Positions 3,156 through 24,130 of a stretch of 25,453 nt of DNA are shown here, piece after piece. The position numbers and the translations under genes are program-made. How positions within the stretch are numbered: position 1 is the first letter of the stretch; each line of letters opens with the position of its first letter. Source of the stretch: a virus; the IMG/VR virus record IMGVR_UViG_3300034407_001456, positions 1 through 25,453 of that record, one strand, 5' to 3'. The notes under the pieces are model-generated. The model ran no database searches. It was given only the letters and a program-made list of their open reading frames with translations, and was not told where the DNA came from.

Positions 3156-4949
3156 TTATAGTGTTGATGCGGCAGTTGTTCTTCTATCCATCGCCTGTTG
3201 TGATGAGATATCTTGTGATACAACATATGCTTTAATTGGTTGTTGTCTAGCTGCTGCAATCGAATCTGCAATCTGTCCACCTGTTGTAACTCCATCAGGT
3301 AAAGTTTGAATACTCGGTGCTGCAAATGATGTAGTTGGTAAAGAAGGTGCGGTAAATGAACCTCCACCACCACCTGATGATGATACCGAACCTCCACCTG
3401 GTTTAGGAACTTCAGGTAACTTTTGTTTACGAATTGCGTTTACTTGTAATAAACCAGCTGCGATAACCGTTCCAGCTGCGATAGCTCCGAATGGTGGGGG
3501 GTATGTAGCAAGTGCTTTAGTCGCTCCTAAATACGTATTGATAAGTGCTTGTGATATAGCCAGTGCTTTCCCTGCAGCTGTTTCTTTTCCTACTGCTTCC
3601 GCAATCGTACCAAGTGCATTCGATATAATAGAAAGTTTAGTTTCTGTTTGAGCTCTCTCAATTTGGATACGAGCTGCTGCAGTTTGTTTATCAAATGCAA
3701 GTAATGCTGCTGCAGATGCTTGATTAGCAACCATTTCCTGTCTCTGTAAAGATTGAGTTTCATCAAATAAGTTTAACTCATCTTGGAATGTTGCTTTGTT
3801 TGTAGCTACTCTTAAATCGTATTCAGCAAATAAACCATCAATAGCTTCACCTCTTGCTTGAGATTCAGCTGCGGCTATATCAGCTAACCTTTGTTTATCT
3901 TCATTAGCTGCTTTATCTTTTAATTCTTTTTCTTTAGCTAACTTTGCTTGTTCTTGAGCCAAAGCTTCATCATCATACTTCTTATTGATACCGGCTAAAT
4001 CTATTCTGTATTCTTCTTCAAATGCTTTTAAATCTTCAACACCAGCTTCTTTAAGTTTCTTTAACTCTTCTTGATACTCTCTTTCTCGTAAGAGTAGTTC
4101 TCTACTCCTCTCATCCATAAGAGATAGTTGTGCATCATCTATAATCTTATTTGCTTCTGCAATTAAAGCTGCTCTATCTTTTGCCGCTTGTTCAGCAATC
4201 TTCTTTCTATCCTCAGCTTCTTTCTTCTCTTGTTCTATACGTTTAGCAGTTTCTTCTTCTAACTTCTTAGTTGCTTCTTCTTCTGCTTTTAGATTTTCTT
4301 CGTACTTCTTTTGTAAAACTTCTGAACTAGCTCTCGATGCTTCCTCTATTTCTTTTGTACCAACACCTAAGAATTTAGCGAATCTGTTAAATGCCGCTGC
4401 TGCTTGGTCTAATAATTCAACAAGGAATTCGAATATAGGGAATGCAACCTTTTCAATAATTGCAAAGATAGGTCCAAGTATCTTACCAAATGCTTCACTA
4501 GCTTTGTTTAATAATTCTTGTCCTCTTTCTGTTTTACTTAAAGATTCTTTGAAAGCAAGAAACAAACCTGCTAAGAGAGTAACTACTGCAATGATAGGGT
4601 TAGCTGCAAGAACCTTTAATCCTCCATCTAATCCTTTTAAAGAACCACCTACTAAACCAACAATACCTGGTTGTTCTGCTAATGCATCTGAGAATCTACG
4701 AGATTGTATTTCAGTATCTTCAAAGGTTCTTTCTAAACCATTAAGTTCTTTTCTTAATCTTTTAAACTCAACTTTATCACCATCGAGTTTTGCTTTTTGT
4801 AATGCTTTACGAGTTTTCTCAATTACCGCACCAATATCCTCAAATCCTTCGATAGTATCATCAAGAGATTTGTTTAATTTAGCTAATTGGTCAGTACCTT
4901 TAGTATCAACATCAACAACAGCTTTGTATGTAGTAGTATTATCTGCCAT
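3156..4949 (-). CDS. Tail tape measure protein
   Basis: Probable tape measure protein, which sets tail length and helps DNA delivery; at 597 residues it is short for this class. The N-terminus (about 20-95) is a coiled coil (KLNKSLDDTIEGFEDIG and following). A hydrophobic segment (about 114-133, ANPIIAVVTLLAGLFLAF) is followed by a second hydrophobic helix (about 156-185, ILGPIFAIIEKVAFPIFEF). A long, very charged Glu/Lys/Ala coiled coil occupies about 200-420. Near the C-terminus is the Ala/Gly-rich region ALATYPPPFGAIAAGTVIAA, which is characteristic of tape measure proteins in Bacteroidota phages. A Ser/Gly-rich linker (GGGSVSSSGGGGG) and a disordered end follow. The start is fixed by the ATG six bases after the micro-gene. 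If roughly 1.5 Å per residue holds, the tail would be about 90 nm; that figure is only an estimate. Confidence 0.82.
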   Translation of the reverse strand: MADNTTTYKAVVDVDTKGTDQLAKLNKSLDDTIEGFEDIGAVIEKTRKALQKAKLDGDKVEFKRLRKELNGLERTFEDTEIQSRRFSDALAEQPGIVGLVGGSLKGLDGGLKVLAANPIIAVVTLLAGLFLAFKESLSKTERGQELLNKASEAFGKILGPIFAIIEKVAFPIFEFLVELLDQAAAAFNRFAKFLGVGTKEIEEASRASSEVLQKKYEENLKAEEEATKKLEEETAKRIEQEKKEAEDRKKIAEQAAKDRAALIAEANKIIDDAQLSLMDERSRELLLREREYQEELKKLKEAGVEDLKAFEEEYRIDLAGINKKYDDEALAQEQAKLAKEKELKDKAANEDKQRLADIAAAESQARGEAIDGLFAEYDLRVATNKATFQDELNLFDETQSLQRQEMVANQASAAALLAFDKQTAAARIQIERAQTETKLSIISNALGTIAEAVGKETAAGKALAISQALINTYLGATKALATYPPPFGAIAAGTVIAAGLLQVNAIRKQKLPEVPKPGGGSVSSSGGGGGSFTAPSLPTTSFAAPSIQTLPDGVTTGGQIADSIAAARQQPIKAYVVSQDISSQQAMDRRTTAASTL

Positions 4950-14293: not shown

Positions 14294-15187
14294 TTAAGTG
14301 TACTGCCACTTTCTTAATGCTTCATCTACTGCTCCAGAATTCCAACGTTCTGGTGTTGTACTCCAAACTTTGGGTGAAATCCAAAGTTCACAATTCTCAC
14401 ATGATTCATAATCCTCAAATGGAATTGCTAAAATAGGAAGATTATAAAAATCATAATCATCTCTTCCTGTCACTTCTTCTAATATTTCAAAACATCTTAA
14501 ATTATCATAAGATGTTAAATCTTCTCTTGTGTTCGGTGTGTACTTTGTACTAAATATCTGTCCTACCGAGCCTGTTGTGTTTAATACTGCATTGTAATAT
14601 TGTTCTGTTTCACAATCTTGTATCTTAAAATACTGCCCCTCAGGGGCTATCAAAAAAAAAAGACAACGATTTTTATCATTGTGACAGGTAAGGTTAAATG
14701 TTGCTGACCAACCTGCCAGCCCGTTATCAAACCGGTCCACAAAGGGTTCACACGTTATATCTCCAAATATCTCAAACCCATCTACTTTGTTCTGTGTGTA
14801 TGCTGTTAAATCATTTATAGCTGCTAATGTGTTAGCATGTATATCAACAACATCATCAGTACCATAAAAAGGAATAGATTGTTTATTCTCTGCTCCATTA
14901 CTTTCGTTCTCTAATACTTTATGTTTATCTGCTATTATTAATTGAATACGATATTCAGTTGTATTTTGTCCAAATACAGCATCTTGAATCAACACATTAC
15001 CAACAGGGTATTGAGGGAACTGAACGTTATCAATTGAGAAAACATCACCTTGAGTTACGTGAGCAATTGAAGGATGATTCTTCATTATAGTTTTAAAATA
15101 GTTTAATGTATTATAGTACAGAGTAAAGTTAGTCTGCGTATCATTAACTATTTGAGCCTGTGCTGGTGTTTGTGATGGTGTGCTCAT
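14294..15187 (-). CDS. Neck/tail terminator-like protein with C-terminal extension and internal slippery site
   Basis: A 297-residue protein in two parts. Residues 1-180 resemble a Bacteroidota phage family placed near the connector (a helix NYFKTIMKNHPSIAH, then a strand set ending VDGFEIFGDITCEPFVDRF and AGWSATFNLTCHNDKNRC) and are plausibly the tail terminator or neck protein. Residues 183-297 (from IAPEGQYFKIQDCETEQYY) look like a separate, Cys-containing surface module. The two parts are joined exactly at a run of ten T (14652-14661 on the minus strand). A GC-rich hairpin lies six bases beyond the in-frame T-TTT-TTT heptamer. A -1 slip there gives FDSP and then UGA, producing a 182-residue protein without the module. 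The start is ATG at 15187, one base after the connector gene. Function is inferred from context and pattern. Confidence 0.6.
   Translation of the reverse strand: MSTPSQTPAQAQIVNDTQTNFTLYYNTLNYFKTIMKNHPSIAHVTQGDVFSIDNVQFPQYPVGNVLIQDAVFGQNTTEYRIQLIIADKHKVLENESNGAENKQSIPFYGTDDVVDIHANTLAAINDLTAYTQNKVDGFEIFGDITCEPFVDRFDNGLAGWSATFNLTCHNDKNRCLFFLIAPEGQYFKIQDCETEQYYNAVLNTTGSVGQIFSTKYTPNTREDLTSYDNLRCFEILEEVTGRDDYDFYNLPILAIPFEDYESCENCELWISPKVWSTTPERWNSGAVDEALRKWQYT
14635..14661 (-). promoter_or_regulatory. Candidate -1 frameshift signal: T10 slippery run plus GC-rich hairpin
   Basis: Reading the minus strand, T10 (14661-14652) contains the zero-frame heptamer T-TTT-TTT (14660-14654). A six-base spacer TTGATA follows, then a five-pair all-GC hairpin GCCCC-TGA-GGGGC (14647-14635). 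The -1 frame meets its stop codon UGA exactly in the hairpin loop (14642-14640). The geometry matches known -1 frameshift cassettes; use in vivo is inferred. Confidence 0.5.
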
Positions 15188-18100: not shown

Positions 18101-19045
18101 TTATGATAAACCGTATCCTACTACTTCATTGTTGAATCCAGTAGTAACACCAGCGGTGTAACGCATGATTACTCTGAAATTCTGTGAACCATCAATGTCC
18201 GCCATGTCTAAAACACGTACTTCATTATAGTCTGACATCAATCCTGTCCCGAAGTGAAGGTTTGATTTCTGTGCTGCAATTACAACATCTCCACTAAGTC
18301 CTGGTGTATGAACTAATTCAATACCTTGGAAGTTAGCTGGTTTCTCACCTACGTTCAACATGTTGTTGTATGAACCTACATTAGTAACACCTGATTGAGA
18401 TGATTGCCATGCTTTCATTCCTTTAGTTGATAGGTAGATAACTACATCTTCTTTTCCGTATACAGTTGCTGGAATAGCTTCTACTGTTGAAGTTAAGATA
18501 TCTACTATGTTAGCTGCTGTAATTGCTGCAGCTGGTTCAGCTGGAATAATTACTGAATCTGCTGAACCAGAAGATGCAAATAATATTGATTCGAATCCTG
18601 CGAATGAACCATTAGTTGCAGTTCCTTGCCAGATAGCTGTTTCAGTAGCTTCTGCTACTTTACCACCTACGTAAGATACTAAGTAATCTGTAAAGTTTCT
18701 TGGAATCTCATCGAATGCAGAGTATCCTAAAGAAATTGCTTCCCAGGAATCCAAGAAGTTTTGCTTACATAATTCAAGGTTTACTTGAAGCTCTTTTGGC
18801 TCAAGTACTGCTTCAGAAATTCCTACTGAACCAGTAGTTTCGAAGTTACATGATGCATCAGATACGATACCTGATACGTCTAATTTTTGGATTACCTCTT
18901 TGTATTTTACATTTGGGTGAATCTCAACGTTTCTTTGGTCAAGTGTTTTAGCACTTAACAATGCTGCTGCGATAAAATCTGCTGCTGCTTCACCTGCATA
19001 GGTAGAAGTTACAGTAGGTAACGCAAAGTTTTGATTTTTTCTCAT
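18101..19045 (-). CDS. Major capsid protein
   Basis: Probable HK97-fold capsid protein; 314 residues. The N-terminus (MRKNQNFALPTVTSTYAGEA) is helical and short, without a large delta domain, which fits the presence of a separate scaffold gene just upstream. Features include EVIQKLDVSGIVSDASCNFE, LQVNLELCKQNFLDSWEAIS, an E-loop-like and spine-helix region NFTDYLVSYVGGKVAEATET followed by AIWQGT, then a P-domain/A-domain style section with VVIYLSTKGMKAWQSSQSG and GIELVHTPGLSGDVVIAAQ. The C-terminal FRVIMRYTAGVTTGFNNEVV is typical of capsid proteins of this class. Leader GAAAGAAAAAAAA before ATG. It is flanked by the scaffold candidate upstream and the tail tube gene downstream, a familiar trio. 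Confidence 0.78.
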   Translation of the reverse strand: MRKNQNFALPTVTSTYAGEAAADFIAAALLSAKTLDQRNVEIHPNVKYKEVIQKLDVSGIVSDASCNFETTGSVGISEAVLEPKELQVNLELCKQNFLDSWEAISLGYSAFDEIPRNFTDYLVSYVGGKVAEATETAIWQGTATNGSFAGFESILFASSGSADSVIIPAEPAAAITAANIVDILTSTVEAIPATVYGKEDVVIYLSTKGMKAWQSSQSGVTNVGSYNNMLNVGEKPANFQGIELVHTPGLSGDVVIAAQKSNLHFGTGLMSDYNEVRVLDMADIDGSQNFRVIMRYTAGVTTGFNNEVVGYGLS

Positions 19046-19063
19046 TTTTTTTTCTTTCGTTAA

Positions 19064-23354: not shown

Positions 23355-23669
23355 CTATTGTGATTTATATTTGTTCATATTCTCTCTGTGCATCAGATGT
23401 TCCATAGTTGCTTTATCACTAAGATAAGCTAGATACAACAAACATTCTTCTAAAGGTTTCTCTGTTACCTTATTGAATTTTAGGATATCTCCTTCTGCAA
23501 GTTGGACAATTGTTGAATAACTTCCCCACTTTCTTCCAAAATTGATTTGATGTTGGGTGACATCTCCTCCTTCTTCAAAGAGTTCAGGGTACCTTTCACT
23601 AAGTCCTTGTATAAACGAATGAAGAAAAAAAAACAACCAAAGTGAAAATCCATTCCCACTTCCCACCAC
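23355..23669 (-). CDS. Second tail assembly chaperone domain, reached by -1 frameshift
   Basis: This open frame lies one base behind the upstream chaperone gene and overlaps its last ~140 bases. The residues after the slippery run (LHSFIQGLSERYPELF, then NFGRKWGSYSTIVQLAEGD, ILKFNKVTEKPLEECLLYLA and a basic end) match a recurring pattern of the C-terminal tail chaperone domain in Bacteroidota siphophages. The frame is open up to an ATG at 23669, but entry is most likely by -1 slippage at T-TTT-TTT (23633-23627), giving a fusion of about 258 residues that starts at 24130. This is the G/GT arrangement known from lambda-like phages. The GT-type product would bind the tape measure and recruit tube subunits. 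Confidence 0.75.
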   Translation of the reverse strand: MVGSGNGFSLWLFFFLHSFIQGLSERYPELFEEGGDVTQHQINFGRKWGSYSTIVQLAEGDILKFNKVTEKPLEECLLYLAYLSDKATMEHLMHRENMNKYKSQ

Positions 23670-24130
23670 TTATCATCATCCCATGGTTCTGCTCCTTTAT
23701 ACTTTTCTATCTCGTATAAAGCACCACGTTTCTTTTTAATAGGTCTGTATAAGATAGATAAGATACTCGGCCAATCATCATTCAATTGTATATTATCGAA
23801 TCTTGATATATCCAAGTAAGCACCATATGGCATTGCAGATAAGTTTGGTTCAAATCCATACTCAACATCACCAATCTTTATTGTTCTTTGTAACTCATAA
23901 TCAGTCTTTCCTAACAACTTAGTTAAATCTTTTCTGATGTTTGATATGATATCACTATCTAACTCTTTCGTCATATCAGGCGTTAGCCCTGTAAGGTTAA
24001 ATACTAAGTAAGCATCTTGTGCAACTGTATCACCTTCATTAGCTTCTAAATCTCTTTGTAAATTAACGTATTGCTTTAAGTTAATTGCTGAGAAATCATT
24101 TGGTACTTTAATCTCTATCTGTTTACTCAT
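23480..24130 (-). CDS. Tail assembly chaperone (zero-frame product)
   Basis: A 216-residue protein that I take as the shorter (G-type) chaperone used during tail assembly and absent from the finished virion. The pattern INLKQYVNLQRDLEANEGD near the N-terminus, then WPSILSILYRPIKKKRGALY, EIEKYKGAEPWDDDKWWEVG and FFFFIRLYKDLVKGTLNSLK with a charged tail, is what I know from chaperones next to the tail genes of Bacteroidota phages. The codons TGT-TTT-TTT-TTC-TTC (around 23624-23635) form a nine-T slippery run where about 1 in some ribosomes would shift to -1. The ATG overlaps the preceding gene by eight bases (ATGAGTAA). Its distance from the tape measure gene, about 19 kb, is unusual. Confidence 0.72.
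   Translation of the reverse strand: MSKQIEIKVPNDFSAINLKQYVNLQRDLEANEGDTVAQDAYLVFNLTGLTPDMTKELDSDIISNIRKDLTKLLGKTDYELQRTIKIGDVEYGFEPNLSAMPYGAYLDISRFDNIQLNDDWPSILSILYRPIKKKRGALYEIEKYKGAEPWDDDKWWEVGMDFHFGCFFFFIRLYKDLVKGTLNSLKKEEMSPNIKSILEESGEVIQQLSNLQKEIS
23624..23633 (-). promoter_or_regulatory. Slippery site for -1 frameshift in the chaperone gene
   Basis: Nine T on the minus strand (23633-23625) followed by C. In the zero frame this gives two overlapping heptamers of the X-XXY-YYZ type, T-TTT-TTT (23633-23627) and T-TTT-TTC (23630-23624). A slip of -1 joins the two chaperone domains. I see no strong stimulatory hairpin downstream. Confidence 0.7.

Follow-up and report, generated by a model that had tools for sequence, protein, structure and literature searches.

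The gene at 14294-15187 on the minus strand of the window, which encodes a predicted tail terminator of 297 aa, carries a run of ten T's (T10, 14652-14661, minus strand) at a domain boundary, and this run very likely serves a programmed design in which a single gene gives two products, by whatever mechanism; transcriptional slippage, that is, slippage of RNA polymerase on the run, is probably the main route. RNA polymerase would slip on T10 and produce some mRNAs in which the number of U's differs from ten, for example 9 or 11. Those with ten or 10+3n would be read by standard translation into the long 297-aa protein; in the others translation would end early, either at once, in the codon where the run ends (178 aa), or a few codons later (182 aa), leaving the bare terminator. 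A single gene would thus supply short and long subunits to one ring capping the tail, on which the extension might have its role. The window, meaning the whole stretch analysed here, is a 25,453-base record of an uncultured virus (IMG/VR IMGVR_UViG_3300034407_001456, positions 1 to 25,453), and its genes include those for terminase, portal, tape-measure and protease-like proteins, with the terminator gene lying two genes after the portal gene in the structural cluster. Among named phages the closest relative is Nonlabens phage P12024L, with a portal 37% identical, which makes a bacteroidote the probable host. The open reading frame has full-length relatives of 48-86% identity; annotated relatives were found neither in the phage collection nor in bacterial and archaeal genome contigs, the family libraries gave no firm Pfam match and a weak PHROG match with unknown function only, and a sequence search of solved structures returned nothing significant.

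Residues 1-178 (14654-15187, minus strand) comprise a gpU-like tail-terminator domain (about residues 21-170) and the start of a linker, according to VIA-align and the AlphaFold model, which was built from 79 relatives and has a modest mean pLDDT of 64 (the structure predictions in this analysis had mean pLDDT of 64 and 70, a modest confidence). The modelled N-terminal domain matches lambda gpU (3fzb) with a VIA-align Z of 12.3 and 3.1 Å over 125 residues, T5 p142 with a Z of 11.3-11.4, and the terminators of Mu and P74-26, and tail terminators dominate the match list; on the model, the domain is a tail-terminator fold of the lambda gpU/T5 p142 type. The linker, residues 171-183, has a pLDDT under 50, and T10 encodes part of it. 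Residues 179-297 (14297-14653, minus strand) form a beta-rich C-terminal extension by the alignments and the model, in which Cys192, Cys232, Cys263 and Cys266 are invariant among the aligned relatives, and a fold search with the extension alone gave no convincing match (best VIA-align Z 4.2). The sequence-only reading had placed the slippery run at the boundary between a neck domain, i.e. the tail-terminator domain, and a Cys-containing extension, and the conserved run, the fold and the alignments agree with this. Several predicted phage proteins among the BFVD matches combine a terminator fold with very long C-terminal parts (868-1035 aa), and some other matches are annotated as collagen repeat or concanavalin A-like, a hint that in other phages fibres may be attached to terminators.

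On the coding strand the site reads CTT TTT TTT TTG ATA GCC CCT GAG GGG CAG, with GATA directly after T10. Protein-based searches gave 298 loci with 182 distinct gene copies, among which 148 are long with exactly T10, three have T9, one has T11, one is long and run-less (L285) and 19 are short paralogs, the remainder being fragments, unclassified copies and the L079 type. Exactly T10 is present in 148 of the 149 distinct intact extension-bearing relatives, with identity down to about 50%. A DNA-pattern scan that accepted any synonymous codon, and is unbiased with respect to the presence of the run, matched at least 111 loci, and among the matches listed 109 have T10, one has T11 and one is run-less (L429). 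On a tree of 79 leaves the run codons changed once at Leu176, never at Phe177 or Phe178 and seven times at Leu179, all seven being TTA/TTG third-base swaps, whereas other columns of the same tree changed 8-36 times for Leu and 5-23 times for Phe, and the flanking Cys175 changed 12 times. CTT makes up about 16% of the Leu codons of the gene, yet it stands at the run in 49 of 51 representatives; a change of Leu to Ile (ATT), which preserves T10, occurs among the relatives, and no synonymous change that breaks T10 was seen in single-gene phages. The constraint spans the third base of Leu176, both Phe codons and the first bases of Leu179, all of which no single heptamer needs. Moreover, A/T runs of at least 9 in the related loci (1.74 Mb, redundant) number about 122 at the T10 site and two elsewhere, and in longer contigs totalling 977 kb T-runs of at least 9 lie at the T10 site and otherwise only in a second gene (9 distinct). 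A homopolymer error, against which the sequence-only reading had cautioned, is answered by the exact T10 in many independent assemblies, and chance or a sequencing artefact was ruled out for T10 by its recurrence in over 100 assemblies. In L039 (about 3515-3545) T10 is kept and the preceding Arg codon reads TGA in frame, which is either a broken copy or a sequence error.

Off-length runs are found in four of about 152 genes and are either real variants or assembly or sequencing errors. In the contigs concerned, L058, L075 and L078 (T9) and L076/L412 (T11), which may likewise be variants or assembly errors, the extension is out of frame. They bear on the very unlikely alternative of phase variation at the DNA level, in which T10 would become T9 or T11 in replication and the extension would be switched off in part of the population: the three T9 and one T11 contigs, if they are not sequencing errors, would be such variants, and stops in both shifted frames would give a clean OFF state. 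However, contingency tracts usually drift in length, while here the exact T10 is held across about 50% protein divergence and the in-frame lengths T7 and T13 were absent among the relatives and the scan matches listed. In addition, the second site described below, if G/GT-like, would need both of its products in one infection.

Both shifted frames end early. One T fewer in the mRNA gives, in the window, CTT TTT TTT TGA, i.e. LFF followed by the +1 stop (14650-14652, minus strand) and a product of 178 aa; in 147 of 148 relatives this stop is the codon that begins with the run's last T, and in the remaining one it is the next codon. One T more gives the 182-aa product ending LFFFDSP, with its TGA at 14640-14642 (minus strand), exactly as the sequence-only reading had it (LFF-FDSP-UGA), and the −1 stop lies within 15 bases past the run in 148 of 148 relatives. 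That reading had taken −1 as the sole truncating frame, which does not hold, as +1 stops at once too; it had missed this immediate stop as well as the upstream inverted repeat treated below. The +1 stop comes mostly for free (shuffling predicts it in 45.4 of 50), but the −1 stop does not: when synonymous codons were shuffled with the proteins and the run held fixed, an early −1 stop appeared in a mean of 27.8 and a maximum of 39 of the 50 representatives in 2000 draws, against 50 of 50 in the real sequences, and after clustering at 70% in 22 of 22 against 11.7 expected. We take the −1 stops to be under selection on the basis of these shuffles. Furthermore, a G follows TTG in none of 46 cases and TTA in 40 of 102 (raw counts, with relatives treated as independent), so that TTG avoids a following G and the +1 stop is preserved.

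Some phages possess a dedicated gene for a short terminator (about 170 aa) directly upstream of the long gene, and such tandem pairs are found in L126, L127, L129, L132, L276, L285, L429 and others. The free-standing short paralogs end in LFELYPN or LFELY followed by the stop, at the same point as the slip products, which supports the earlier claim that slippage gives the short form. In the comparison of one-gene and two-gene cases, made where upstream sequence is visible (144 single-gene and 28 two-gene cases), the run is kept in all 144 single-gene cases (140 T10, three T9, one T11) and lost in two of the 28 two-gene cases (Fisher p 0.026, with relatives treated as independent); the two-gene state needs only three changes on the tree. 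The intact run-less extension genes are only L285 and L429, each preceded by a dedicated short-terminator gene, so an extension without the T-run, the case that would have told against the sequence-only reading, was found only twice and both times next to a separate short gene. These are probably separate losses of the run, because the two are only 67% identical to each other and each is 73-75% identical to a T10 relative. In L079 and L112, which are about 90% identical to the T10-bearing L113, both the run and most of the extension are gone. Loss of T10 is thus confined to copies that have a dedicated short gene next to them or that have lost the extension too, although the persistence of T10 in 26 of the 28 two-gene contigs despite the short gene counts against a simple account.

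Considering the mechanism, the main rival to transcriptional slippage is programmed −1 ribosomal frameshifting at U UUU UUU (or U UUU UUR) to the 182-aa form, in the manner of E. coli dnaX, which we regard as unlikely. U UUU UUU stands in frame at codons 176-178, it and U UUU UUR are both ribosomal slippery heptamers, the heptamer is present in all run-bearing relatives, and the −1 stops are selected. In the lineage of the window a strong GC hairpin, GCCCC-TGA-GGGGC (14635-14647, minus strand), follows at suitable spacing (MFE −11.4 versus −3.1 for the null), and on re-reading the window sequence both it and T10 exist in the 297-residue gene as had been described. Its proposed part as a stimulator was not borne out, since folds of the 36 bases after the run gave a mean z of −0.31 against synonymous shuffles over 50 representatives, and the hairpin is confined to close relatives of the window; of the elements whose conservation the sequence-only reading had wanted compared, the T-run (T10 in 148/149) is kept and the stem belongs to the window lineage only. 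The ribosomal −1 mechanism of that reading is also disfavoured, as the whole run of ten bases, beyond any one heptamer, is selected; the +1 stop is held as well; the conserved upstream block CACAAYGATAAAAATCGTTGTC contains no Shine-Dalgarno-like sequence on inspection of the alignment; and the run in the second gene keeps 9-10 T's while shifting against the codons. Transcriptional slippage is favoured because all ten T's are constrained and both frames have stops, because no conserved stimulator was found in the 36 bases downstream and a run of at least 9 is of the length known for polymerase slippage, and because poly(T) readily causes slippage of E. coli RNA polymerase (PMC6260861). The scarcity of other runs in the 977 kb, the conserved −1 ORF of the second gene and the inverted repeat next to the run were also counted for slippage.

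One base upstream of T10 lies a conserved inverted repeat, ACAATGAT-AAAA-ATCGTTGT (14663-14682, minus strand), which is perfect in the window and could form a stem-loop in the nascent RNA. Its mean MFE is −5.83 kcal/mol, compared with −0.38 for synonymous shuffles, the lowest of 200 reaching −0.89. The codons within it are unusual for the gene: Arg174 is CGT in 45 of 51 representatives, with CGT used for 6 of 279 Arg codons elsewhere in the gene, and His169 is CAC in 48 of 51, against 28% elsewhere. The run-less copies L285, L429, L079 and L112 all have AGA at the Arg and have lost the repeat, while all 28 dedicated short genes without the T-run keep CGT and the repeat, which therefore cannot be a stimulator of slippage only. 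No compensatory changes in the repeat were found across the relatives and RNAalifold gave no consensus structure on the alignment of the upstream block, so pairing of the repeat is putative; the window has no match to Rfam families. A genome-wide operator was considered for the palindrome and ruled out, as it is a single site in the window, and in the longer contigs each copy of the gene has one. The order of repeat and then T's resembles an intrinsic terminator, and also the stem-loop of the Roseiflexus insertion sequence (IS), where a nascent stem-loop 5' of the motif stimulates slippage of RNA polymerase, as described in a review (PMC5009743).

The first of these likenesses raises the alternative that the stem-loop and U10 are an internal terminator or attenuator lowering downstream expression, with the truncated frames irrelevant. 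Although the repeat stands one base before U10 in terminator order, this is extremely improbable: selection for −1 stops and the loss of the run only with a short gene or a lost extension are left unexplained, and the stem, which is AU-rich, persists in short genes without a U-run. It is also highly improbable that the conserved block serves at the DNA level as a linker through which recombination exchanges extension modules, or is an element of another kind, with no productive slippage on the run. The block CACAAYGATAAAAATCGTTGTC-T10 does sit at the domain boundary and is partly kept in short paralogs, but a linker of this kind predicts neither the stops in both frames nor the scarcity of runs of at least 9 elsewhere, and each gene copy has the palindrome at this one site only.

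Among known systems, the closest match for transcriptional slippage in the terminator gene is dnaX of Thermus thermophilus, in which slippage on a 9-base run produces mRNAs that stop in either non-zero frame and give the shorter subunit (PMC5009743, PMC1088944). Common to both are a long zero-frame product, an A/T run of at least 9 and stops in both frames leading to a shorter product, and the marks of dnaX-type slippage, a maintained T-run of at least 9 and early stops in both non-zero frames, were found here. In contrast to the replicase gene dnaX, this is a gene for a phage virion protein, T10 extends across a large phage family and adjoins an inverted repeat, and slippage is predicted from sequence. 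In E. coli dnaX, a −1 ribosomal frameshift gives gamma. The likeness to the present gene is that a slip leads to the short form and that U UUU UUU or U UUU UUR is available, whereas here neither a conserved stem in the 36 bases downstream nor a Shine-Dalgarno-like stimulator was found, and +1 also stops. The A11 run of tssM1 in Citrobacter rodentium, with about 20-25% slippage and both forms and their ratio needed (PMC4256274), is likewise a homopolymer with two length variants, in a machine related to phage tails, but slippage there gives the long form and here the short one. In the major tail proteins of SPP1 and the lactococcal 936 phages, extensions (TpeX) are made as a long form by programmed frameshift (PMC6669499); a frame change gives some copies of a virion protein an extra domain in these cases and, as proposed, in ours, there as the long form of the major tail protein and here by a short form of the tail terminator. 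The Roseiflexus IS transposase likewise has an inverted repeat immediately before its slippage motif (PMC5009743), with a T5C5 motif, a fusion-type product and a strong GC stem as against the AU-rich stem and plain T10 here. Truncation-type slippage is easily missed, and a genome-wide survey of slippage sites omitted such genes because they offer comparative analysis no additional coding sequence (PMC1088944). Three signals would reveal it here: a run conserved at its synonymous positions, a stop held in each of the two shifted frames, and disappearance of the run where a separate short gene is present. If slippage of this kind operates in the terminator gene, the mix of copies of a phage virion protein would be set by RNA polymerase, with the ribosome not responsible, and the oligomeric tail cap would offer a ready test of mixed subunits.

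The second poly-T gene of the window (23480-24130, minus strand) encodes a zero-frame product of 216 aa and has a T9 run (23625-23633, minus strand) followed by a −1-frame extension (23355-23633, minus strand), the fused product being about 259 aa. T9 or T10 is kept in 20 of 20 aligned relatives covering the whole site (44-82% identity), the run is sometimes displaced relative to the codons with its length still 9-10 T, and the fused −1 product (254-260 aa) is conserved to the C terminus in the 20 relatives. The gene looks like a G/GT-type arrangement, with a slip site late in the first ORF and a conserved −1 ORF, and this assignment is putative. It shares with the lambda-type G/GT chaperones a G-like zero-frame product and a conserved −1 extension, and differs from them in its T9-T10 homopolymer and in lying beside the terminase gene, away from the tape-measure gene (3156-4949). 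No obvious conserved stem was found upstream of its run. It is an evenly balanced conjecture that poly-T slippage by RNA polymerase is the usual recoding device throughout this lineage of double-stranded DNA phages at two virion-assembly genes, with fusion in one and truncation of the terminator in the other, so as to set a mixed ring of bare and extended subunits whose ratio would be tuned with the help of the terminator-like stem-loop. Elsewhere in the window, a run of nine A's on the coding strand (19045-19053) lies immediately 5' of the start codon of a gene for 314 aa (18101-19045, minus strand).
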